DNA of 10,793 nucleotides from an uncultured Clostridia bacterium (GTDB taxonomy: Bacteria; Bacillota_A; Clostridia; Oscillospirales; Oscillospiraceae): assembly GCA_947167435.1 (NCBI GenBank), contig CAMVIC010000041.1, positions 1-10,793 of the forward strand, given 5' to 3'. The notes under the pieces are model-generated. The model was not told the DNA's origin. It saw only the letters and a list, made by a program, of their open reading frames with translations, and ran no database searches. Shown piece after piece: positions 165 through 10,793 of the stretch (the first letter of the stretch is position 1; each line of letters starts with the position of its first letter). The translations under genes were made by a program, and so were the position numbers.

Positions 165-1133
165 TCAATTCTGCGGAAAGGAGTTGAACCAGGCCCGCTC
201 CGAAAACGCTTTCTTTTTCGGGGGAGCCGGCACGTCCTCACCGATTCCCACCGGCAGGAAGCAGACCAGCTCGTAATCCTCCGGAACGTGCAGAATCTGC
301 GCCATCCTGTCGCAGATCCGGTCGTCGTCGGTAATGTGGCCCTCGAACCAGCAGCTCTGATACCCCAGAGCCGTGATGGCCAGCAGCATATTCTCGATGG
401 CGGCGGCATAGTCCTGCACCGCGAAGCATTTGTCCCGGTAGGCGGGGATTCTCCGGGTCAGGACGCAGATGGCCGCGGGTGCGGTTTCGGCCACCGGCGG
501 GTCGATTGCCCGGAGAAGGGCGGAGAGCACTTCCGGGTCGTCGATGGCGATCAGGGACGTGGTCTGCCTGTTGCAGCCGGAGGGGGCAGCAAGGCCCGCC
601 TGCAGAATCCGGACCAGGTCCTCTCTGGGGACGGGGACGGCTTTGTACCTTCCCCGATAGCTGTGCCGGTGCTCAATTGCGTCCAATACGCTGCAGCAGG
701 CCGGAGAGTGCGCTTCCCGGGGCGTTTGCGGCAGGACGTCCAGGCGGCGCAGTTCCGATTGGATCCGCTCAAGGATGGTCCGGTCCGCCGGGAGCCAGTC
801 GACCTGATCCAGGCTCTTCACATCCAGCCATCTGGCGGCCTCGTGCTCCTTCAGAACCGGGGTTCCCTCCGTGATGGTGCACCAGAAGCACTGCATGCTC
901 AGATGAAAGAGCGGGTAATCGTACTCGACGGTGGCGAGACAGTCGCCTACCTGGATCTCGGTGTCAAGCTCTTCCCGGATCTCACGCACCAGCGCCTGCC
1001 GGGGTGTTTCGCCGGGCTCGATTTTCCCGCCGGGAAATTCCCAGCCGTCCTTGTAATCGCCGTAGCCGCGCTGGGTGGCAAAGATCCTGCTGCCGTCGCG
1101 GATGACGGCCGCTGCAACGTTCACTGTTTTCAT
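165..1133 (-). CDS. fused Nudix hydrolase-nitroreductase protein
   Basis: This 322-residue protein joins two enzymes in one frame. Residues 1-135 form a MutT-like Nudix domain: W31-E-F-P-G-G-K leads into a Nudix box with G36, E42, R50-E51 and E54-E55. The usual glycine near the end of the box is D57. Such domains hydrolyse oxidised or other nucleoside triphosphates. Residues from about 148 to 322 form a nitroreductase-family flavoprotein domain: R156-H-S-Y-R160 and A183-P-S-G-C-N-R-Q190 match the family's FMN-binding segments. This family reduces nitro compounds, quinones or flavins with NAD(P)H. The start has GGGAG about 7 nt upstream and lies 11 nt after the dnaE stop, so the two genes are probably translated from one mRNA. 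The join (about 136-147) is a short P/S-rich linker, and the open frame is continuous. The substrates of both halves are unknown. No signal peptide or membrane segment is visible; it should be cytosolic. Confidence 0.88.
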   Translation of the reverse strand: MKTVNVAAAVIRDGSRIFATQRGYGDYKDGWEFPGGKIEPGETPRQALVREIREELDTEIQVGDCLATVEYDYPLFHLSMQCFWCTITEGTPVLKEHEAARWLDVKSLDQVDWLPADRTILERIQSELRRLDVLPQTPREAHSPACCSVLDAIEHRHSYRGRYKAVPVPREDLVRILQAGLAAPSGCNRQTTSLIAIDDPEVLSALLRAIDPPVAETAPAAICVLTRRIPAYRDKCFAVQDYAAAIENMLLAITALGYQSCWFEGHITDDDRICDRMAQILHVPEDYELVCFLPVGIGEDVPAPPKKKAFSERAWFNSFPQN

Positions 1134-4624: not shown

Positions 4625-4899
4625 AGGATTACCTTCTTAAATCTCAATAAGATAGGGCGTTTTCTTCATGACCTCAGAGTCAGCAGATGAAACACGAATT
4701 ATCACATTAAACACCCCCTCGATTATGTTTCAGTAAAATATCCGGCTGATGCCGCAGCTCAGAGTTTTCATCCGGGAGCTTTACAACCTGCATGGGTCAC
4801 ATGGCGGCATGATAGTTTTGTGACATACTGTGCACGTAAACAAGAGATGCGGTGAGTATCTCATGAAAAATACAAAATTCAAAAAGGAGGATAATTATT
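4625..4899. other. AT-rich intergenic region between dnaE and the small peptide gene
   Basis: This 275-bp stretch is more AT-rich than the genes to either side and has no supported gene. It must hold the dnaE promoter (minus strand) and the promoter of the small gene (plus strand). On the minus strand a TGATAAT block is a possible -10, but no -35 at good spacing is visible. On the plus strand TACTGT at 4826-4831 is a weak -10 candidate with no clear -35. A 7-bp hairpin (GAGATGC at 4844-4850 with GTATCTC at 4856-4862, loop GGTGA) sits just before the RBS of the small gene and would be in its 5' leader. Confidence 0.5.
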
Positions 4900-5139
4900 A
4901 TGACACTTACAGAACTTAACACCGGCAGACAGGCTGCAGCGGCAAAAAAACGGGAACTCAAAATGTCTGAATTGAGCAAGGTATCCGGTGCCAAAAACGA
5001 CTGTTGTATTATTCACTCATACAAAACAGGCAATTACAGGAAAACCCGGGTTGGCTTTATAACGCTGGCGGAATACGAGTATTTTTGCACGATGTGCGAA
5101 CAGTTTTTCTGGCAGGGAGAAATTGAATACTTCGAGTAA
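4900..5139 (+). CDS. small cysteine-containing peptide with a double-glycine-like leader
   Basis: I do not recognise this 79-residue protein. It has a very strong ribosome binding site (AAAAAGGAGG, ending 9 nt before the ATG) and a strong terminator 21 bp after the stop, so it is very likely a real, independently transcribed gene. Residues 1-31 resemble the leader of a peptide exported by a double-glycine peptidase transporter: L20, E24, L25, V28, G30 and A31 fall at the -12, -8, -7, -4, -2 and -1 places of that leader consensus. The remaining 48 residues (K32-E79) hold four cysteines as C35-C36 and C63-x-x-C66, and an aromatic end (YEYFCTMCEQFFW at 59-71). It could be a bacteriocin, a modified peptide precursor or a signalling peptide; the CC...CxxC pattern could instead bind a metal in a cytosolic protein. 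No transporter, peptidase, modification or immunity gene lies nearby. Its surroundings are more AT-rich than the flanking core genes, which suggests later insertion between the whiA operon and dnaE. Confidence 0.75.
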   Translation: MTLTELNTGRQAAAAKKRELKMSELSKVSGAKNDCCIIHSYKTGNYRKTRVGFITLAEYEYFCTMCEQFFWQGEIEYFE

Positions 5140-5159
5140 TCACAGGGTACCTGAAAGCT

Positions 5160-5186
5160 GCGGGGGCGCTTGCCCCCGCTTTTTTT
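5160..5186 (+). terminator. intrinsic terminator of the small peptide gene
   Basis: A perfect 8-bp GC stem (GCGGGGGC at 5160-5167 with GCCCCCGC at 5172-5179) closes a GCTT loop and is followed by seven T (5180-5186). It lies 21 bp after the stop of the 4900-5139 gene. Read on the minus strand it lacks a clean T-run, so it serves the whiA operon poorly; no better minus-strand terminator is seen between 5187 and 5277. Confidence 0.92.
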
Positions 5187-5277
5187 ATGAGAAGATACAG
5201 GACAGAGGGTGTGCCTGACTTAAGCAAAAGGCTTATTCAGTCGAAAGTGTTTGCTCGCCCTTCCCGGGCGCCGGGCA

Positions 5278-10401: not shown

Positions 10402-10423
10402 ACCACCATAAAAGTGAACATGA

Positions 10424-10494
10424 TTTCGATATATCACAAATGATATGGATTTGAAGTCTCTACCCGGTTACCGTAAATGACCGGACTATCGAAA
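10424..10494 (+). ncRNA. purine riboswitch aptamer, guanine class
   Basis: The three-helix purine aptamer can be drawn in full. P1 is TTTCGATA (10424-10431) with TATCGAAA (10487-10494). P2 is CAAAT (10437-10441) with ATTTG (10449-10453), with loop GATATGG. P3 is CCGGTTA (10464-10470) with TGACCGG (10478-10484), with loop CCGTAAA. The junction reads AAGTCTCTACC, so the invariant uridines that correspond to U47 and U51 of the B. subtilis xpt aptamer are at 10457 and 10461. The base that sets specificity is C10486 (C74 in the usual numbering), which indicates guanine/hypoxanthine rather than adenine. U48C (10458) is at the flipped-out position and is tolerated. Ligand class is by family knowledge; binding was not tested. 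Confidence 0.95.
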
Positions 10495-10532
10495 ATGCAC
10501 AGCAGGACGGCGCGGCCGGGCTGCGAGGTTTC

Positions 10533-10719: not shown

Positions 10720-10793
10720 ATGAAAAAGATCCTTGCCATGCTGCTCGCTCTGGTTATGGTCGTCGCCCTTGGCGCCGTCAACAATGCCACTGC
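10720..10793 (+). CDS. secreted or membrane-anchored protein, N-terminus only
   Basis: The first 24 codons are present before the window ends, reading MKKILAMLLALVMVVALGAVNN and continuing with ATA. This is a classic export signal: two lysines then a hydrophobic stretch of about 16 residues. AGGAG lies about 11 nt upstream of the ATG. No lipobox cysteine appears in the visible part, so it is either a signal peptidase I substrate or the cysteine comes later. Because a guanine-class riboswitch precedes it, it may be a purine or nucleoside uptake protein such as a BMP-family solute-binding protein, but this is inferred from context only. Confidence 0.8.
   Translation, partial: MKKILAMLLALVMVVALGAVNNAT

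Follow-up and report, generated by a model that had tools for sequence, protein, structure and literature searches.

The window (the whole stretch of DNA analysed, 10,793 nucleotides) contains a small peptide gene, which is best explained, with a probability of about 0.72, as an acquired stand-alone precursor with a double-glycine-type leader that would be cut after residue 31, its 48-residue core being exported in trans. The gene is real and conserved, and a leader with the canonical positions is conserved in all three sequences of the family, namely P0001, encoded in the window, and its homologues P0002 and P0003. The gene appears to have been acquired horizontally, and its product is probably a member of a new, apparently very rare family within the known kind of double-glycine-leader peptides. 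The features referred to below are as follows.

4625..5277: dnaE-whiA gap of 653 bp, containing the peptide gene (median 41 bp in 71 relatives)
4885..4890, + strand: Shine-Dalgarno motif AGGAGG, 9 nt 5' of the ATG, read from the sequence
4900..5139, + strand: peptide precursor gene of 79 codons (P0001), ATG to TAA, frame conserved in P0002 and P0003
4900..4992, + strand: predicted leader, residues 1-31, ending LKMSELSKVSGA, conserved at -12/-8/-7/-4/-2, profile cut at 31
4993..5136, + strand: predicted mature core, residues 32-79, 34/48 positions invariant
5002..5007, + strand: codons of C35 and C36, invariant in three sequences
5086..5097, + strand: codons of C63-x-x-C66, the cysteines invariant in three sequences
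5160..5186, + strand: intrinsic terminator of the peptide gene, a hairpin followed by seven T

The reading frame is kept at full length in two other, homologous clusters and is therefore not a chance ORF, a reading that was ruled out. An earlier note on this DNA had described a 79-codon gene with a near-ideal ribosome-binding site and its own terminator in an AT-richer patch, and all of these features were recovered. AGGAGG precedes the ATG, and the terminator hairpin (5160-5179) has 8 G-C pairs and a loop of 4. The RNA of positions 5140-5187 folds with -22.7 kcal/mol (z -2.74), equally stable structures being obtained in 1/200 shuffles; since a window-wide terminator scan was no richer than shuffled sequence (10 sites vs 10.9), the case for the terminator rests on the stem and the T-run. 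No promoter upstream of the gene passed a simple scan. The peptide gene has a GC content of 0.43 and a GC3 of 0.50; the other complete genes, of which seven of eight were compared with hprK left out, range over 0.59-0.66 and 0.79-0.87, respectively.

The genomic position is likewise unusual. The gene runs antiparallel to dnaE and whiA inside the 653-bp gap, and its earlier placement between core operons was wrong: it lies on the opposite strand between whiA and dnaE, which are almost contiguous in the majority of 71 relatives. These relatives come from 75 loci fetched with a WhiA query, in 71 of which both the dnaE start and whiA could be placed, gap lengths being counted from where the whiA match ends. 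Going by their titles, most of the 75 loci belong to MAGs of Oscillospiraceae, Ruminococcaceae or Clostridiales, and many stem from samples of rumen, goat, sheep, deer or rabbit. A gap of at least 653 bp occurs in 7/71 relatives. Similarity between the gap of the window and the loci of relatives is confined to the start of dnaE, plus two short matches at E 0.71, and a tblastn search of the 75 loci with the three proteins gave no match to the peptide below E 0.4. Where relatives have a longer whiA-dnaE gap, it is occupied by other genes, by eye for example sugar-related or secreted-protein ones. Because a minority of relatives carry other genes there (at least 654 bp, 7/71), the whiA-dnaE junction may be a spot that tolerates insertions. 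The long gap, the absence of the peptide from the loci of relatives and the deviant GC3 together suggest that a small piece of foreign DNA was inserted here, with its gene antiparallel to the neighbours; loss of the gene from the relatives seems a less likely account than acquisition. Genes within the whiA-dnaE gap can be seen at L009 10886-15503 and L029 10865-15707, and also in L006, L007 and L025.

Seven of the other complete genes of the window are dnaE, whiA, rapZ, murB, hprK, rpmB (L28) and xpt, and the eighth is a NUDIX-nitroreductase fusion, a single ORF at 165-1133 (-) with an N-terminal NUDIX domain and a C-terminal nitroreductase domain. A purine riboswitch aptamer (10407-10508, +, 76 bits) lies downstream of xpt, and one further ORF, beginning near 10721 downstream of this riboswitch with a secreted-protein-like start MKKILAMLLALVMVVALGAVNNA, runs off the window end. 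Immediately upstream of dnaE, a 25-codon ORF with a GTG start (4637-4714, -), situated within the gap, is possibly a remnant or a leader ORF. As stated in the earlier note, no export or modification gene was recognised among the genes of the 10.8-kb window, and the same holds for immunity genes; the complete genes besides that of the peptide are the seven housekeeping genes and the NUDIX-nitroreductase fusion, with no recognised modification enzyme among them. An adjacent immunity gene, a feature of class II bacteriocins, was looked for by eye in the 653-bp gap, where no other convincing ORF was found.

A search of 5.8 billion proteins, of a kind that misses relatives sharing no exact 5-residue word, returned only P0001, P0002 (77% identity) and P0003 (68%); the family, with three clusters found, is apparently very rare. 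All three proteins have 79 residues and align without gaps. The P0001 cluster comprises 3 member sequences from 2 contigs, and a separate protein search with P0003 alone returned only P0003 and P0001. A phage or plasmid gene was considered and rejected: tblastn against 50,697 phage and 72,556 plasmid records yielded no match at E <= 1, and at the DNA level the gap matched nothing among the plasmids and one 31-base stretch of phage sequence (E 0.004), which was put down to chance. Searches requiring exact short peptide patterns found no relative in IMG/VR (queries A1, P0002 and P0003) and, likewise with exact patterns, none in species-representative genome contigs. Query A1 gave 3 weak matches in 12 whole genomes (E <= 10), and 3, 7 and 12 weak matches in 400, 394 and 391 genomes of the family, order and class, respectively, of G001, the genome of one relative (thresholds of E <= 0.01 or 0.02; overlapping sets, sharing for example G001 and G519, with one match standing in two lists). 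No leader peptide was seen by eye at the weak-match loci L081 and L123-L136; loci L076-L080 were judged by their ranges and open-frame lengths only (60, 391, 605, 218 and 633 aa), and four matches of the 391-genome set had no locus. The three proteins had nothing below E 0.05 by tblastn in 20 loci around C39 peptidase genes (best 0.051, in L110), no sequence relative was found in the PDB, and nothing describing the peptide was found in the literature, as judged by titles and abstract starts.

According to PMC10885120, C39 proteases recognise hydrophobic side chains at -12, -7 and -4 of the leader and cleave behind GG, GA or GS. Hydrophobic residues occupy -12, -7 and -4 in 3/3 sequences (L, L and V/I/V for P0001/P0002/P0003), and the residues at -2/-1 are GA, GA and GG, again in agreement in 3/3, the P0003 leader ending in VAGG. 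Invariant in all three are L-12, K-11, E-8, L-7 and G-2 (L20, K21, E24, L25 and G30), while -3 is S/S/A, -1 is A/A/G, and -10, -9, -6 and -5 (residues 22, 23, 26 and 27) vary. Glutamate at -8 is part of the double-glycine leader consensus. Position -15 holds K, L and R, which differ from the Phe reported at this position for ComA in PMC10885120. Since the earlier prediction of this leader drew on a single sequence, P0002 and P0003 serve as an independent test, which it passed: positions -12, -8, -7, -4, -2 and -1 are kept or conservatively replaced in both, and both are stand-alone proteins of 79 residues, not parts of cytosolic enzymes.

The leader was further assessed against background ORFs. 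When a strict 12-residue pattern was sought within the N-terminal 45 residues, 3 ORFs of the window and the 75 related loci carried it; the two besides P0001, one each in L044 and L070, are apparently spurious. A 13-position leader profile was derived from 21/27 pattern-matching ORFs near C39 genes in relatives; because the pattern that selected these training ORFs already specified the canonical positions, the profile owes nothing to the P0001-P0003 family but does depend on the consensus. Its best cut falls at residue 31 in P0001, P0002 and P0003, which agrees with the cleavage after A31 predicted earlier. Shuffled sequences scored as high in 93, 31 and 1 of 20000 cases for P0001, P0002 and P0003, respectively. 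Among 8811 background ORFs, obtained with the same ORF criteria in the window and the 75 loci, P0001 ranked 5th, whereas P0002 and P0003 scored above all. Owing to this fifth rank P0001 alone is unconvincing, its sequence being suggestive of a leader, whereas the family of three, although a small sample, is convincing. Curated bacteriocin and RiPP leader models (NCBIfam/Pfam) gave no match over cut-off for P0001-P0003, and none at all for P0001; nor did any other protein family score above its curated cut-off. Below cut-off, P0002 matched PF04604 (Type-A lantibiotic) in the leader region (E 0.028, 14.7 bits vs a cut-off of 21.7), and P0003 matched TIGR04149, a radical-SAM RiPP leader family (E 0.046, 13.6 bits vs 25); two PHROGs with no assigned function were also matched weakly, below threshold, by the leader region of P0002 (E 0.00098 and 0.0047).

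The predicted core of P0001 consists of 48 aa with a calculated mass of 5906.6 Da before any modification, and is more strongly conserved than the leader (34/48 vs 11/31 invariant positions; Fisher P 0.003). The CC...CxxC core with four cysteines proposed earlier was borne out, C35, C36, C63 and C66 being invariant in the three sequences, as are S40, T43, T49 and T55. The cores start with KNDCC, INDCC and VNSCC, and have calculated charges at pH 7 of -2.2, -3.2 and -2.3 (P0001, P0002 and P0003, respectively). A core-only AlphaFold model made without an alignment shows a beta-hairpin and a helix (mean pLDDT 63.6). The full-length model has a low mean confidence of 49.3, with a helix over residues 3-29 and a core in strand-helix-strand order, differing from the core-only model. 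The fold search used the core model, the full-length one being too weak, and this weak core model matched no PDB fold at E <= 0.001.

These data bear on two other readings. According to the first, the product is a cytosolic, four-cysteine metal-binding microprotein whose likeness to a leader is that of a chance amphipathic helix. Zinc could be bound by the CC...CxxC arrangement, residues 57-70 of P0003 match a zinc ribbon below threshold (Zn_ribbon_11, E 0.11, 12.6 bits vs a cut-off of 24), no exporter was recognised in the window, and P0001 alone is only fifth of the 8811 ORFs on the leader profile. However, four of the five invariant residues within 20-31 fall on canonical leader positions while residues 22, 23, 26 and 27 vary, P0003 has VAGG, and the N-terminal part is the less conserved one, as a removable part could be; membership of the zinc ribbons finds no family match over cut-off and no fold match at E <= 0.001 with the weak model. 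This alternative is thereby weakened and appears improbable. The second reading holds that the peptide is a RiPP precursor and that enzymes encoded at other loci modify its core, for example with thioether/lanthionine rings from S40, T43, T49 and T55 to the four cysteines. It agrees with the invariance of these eight residues and with the sub-cut-off leader matches to the Type-A lantibiotic and radical-SAM RiPP families. Against it, no modification enzyme was recognised in the window, conserved aromatic and charged residues extend from one end of the core to the other, as they would in a folded domain, and conservation is higher in the core than in the leader, opposite to the situation in the LahT cluster (PMC10885120); we consider it quite improbable.

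For a stand-alone precursor exported in trans, a transporter would have to be supplied from elsewhere in the genome. A Peptidase_C39 domain over the family cut-off is encoded in 17/24 related genomes (21 matches), whereas the remaining 7/24 have no C39 match at E <= 1e-5. The matches sit in open frames of 682-801 aa, which, by their length, are likely peptidase-ABC transporters. The C39 domain is common anyway, since it also occurs in 8/14 control genomes. Small double-glycine proteins were found in 11/20 of the fetched C39 loci by selection and in 13/20 by pattern (hand count). Pfam analysis of six of them identified one LysM and one CW_7 protein. In L104 (5891-6160) a double-glycine leader precedes a LysM domain, and in L122 (8436-8756) one precedes CW_7 repeats, both near a C39 gene; similar LysM/CW_7-like ORFs were seen by eye in other C39 loci. 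These cell-wall-binding proteins are seemingly exported by the bacteriocin-type route. Five small ORFs in a row with double-glycine-type ends lie near a C39 gene at L118 1183-2582 (-). As double-glycine export seems active in these relatives, it is plausible that the peptide is served in trans by a transporter encoded elsewhere. Two Bacteroidales clusters without a peptidase-containing ABC transporter (PCAT) are described in PMC10352776 as having precursor peptides with double-glycine residues.

The proposed course of events would then be the following. Transcription would begin upstream of the gene, at a promoter within the AT-rich sequence, and end at the terminator 5160-5186. The leader helix would dock on a PCAT, at its C39 domain, with the transporter gene lying at another place in the genome; this recognition is supported by the conservation of the recognition positions. 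The leader would then be cut after residue 31 (GA) with export of the 48-residue core. Outside the cell, C35/C36 and C63/C66 would oxidise to two disulfides, perhaps around a beta-hairpin-helix domain, and the core would target bacteria nearby or work at the surface of the cell. A bacteriocin-like action on other bacteria outside the cell is put forward tentatively, at less than even odds, and the product could alternatively be a signal or a cell-surface domain. Most class II bacteriocins have a core that is not acidic. A classical bacteriocin is disfavoured here because the core is acidic and no immunity gene was recognised. The gene seems to travel alone. In a broader scheme, which is rather unlikely, it would be a self-contained, transferable one-gene secreted effector with a conserved core of new four-cysteine fold. 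Together with its own ribosome-binding site and terminator it would pass from one gut bacterium to another, relying for export in trans on a PCAT present in the recipient beforehand; the leader would evolve fast and adapt to the transporter of each host, and the core would remain unchanged.

When bacteriocins or modified peptides are sought by genome mining, a transporter or a modification enzyme is often the starting point. A lone gene with a sound double-glycine leader, with no exporter recognised in its window and three clusters found, would be missed by such approaches. If the peptide is exported in trans, the C39 transporters of these bacteria would be general-purpose exporters serving unlinked, movable cargo, and the core would be a new four-cysteine peptide scaffold.

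Several known systems resemble the peptide in part. The motif YGNGV is the signature of class IIa (pediocin-like) bacteriocins, and it is absent from P0001-P0003. With class II bacteriocins, both the pediocin-like IIa and the linear/disulfide IId types, the peptide has in common a short double-glycine leader, a 48-residue core with cysteines and, in a low-confidence model, a possible beta-hairpin followed by a helix, whereas it differs in its acidic core and in that no operon with an immunity gene and transporter was recognised. The LysM/CW_7 double-glycine proteins of related genomes follow a common leader logic but, unlike the window peptide, lie within about 8 kb of a C39 gene and carry cell-wall-binding domains. 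A small protein of a related genome (L118 2379-2582) combines, as P0001 does, a leader with a four-cysteine core, which is of the form CxxC...CxxC vs the CC...CxxC of P0001; it matches Zn_ribbon_3 below cut-off (E 0.035) and gives no BLASTP alignment with P0001. Substrates of the PCAT/AMS type have E at -8 in their consensus, as the window peptide does. Hydrophobic residues at -12/-7/-4, a GA or GG site and a small core are further points of likeness, whereas the window peptide has no adjacent PCAT in the window and no described core was found to be similar to its own. In PMC10885120, the LahT cluster is reported to combine conserved leaders with diverse cores; the window peptide differs from PCAT/AMS substrates in having a core that is more conserved than its leader.
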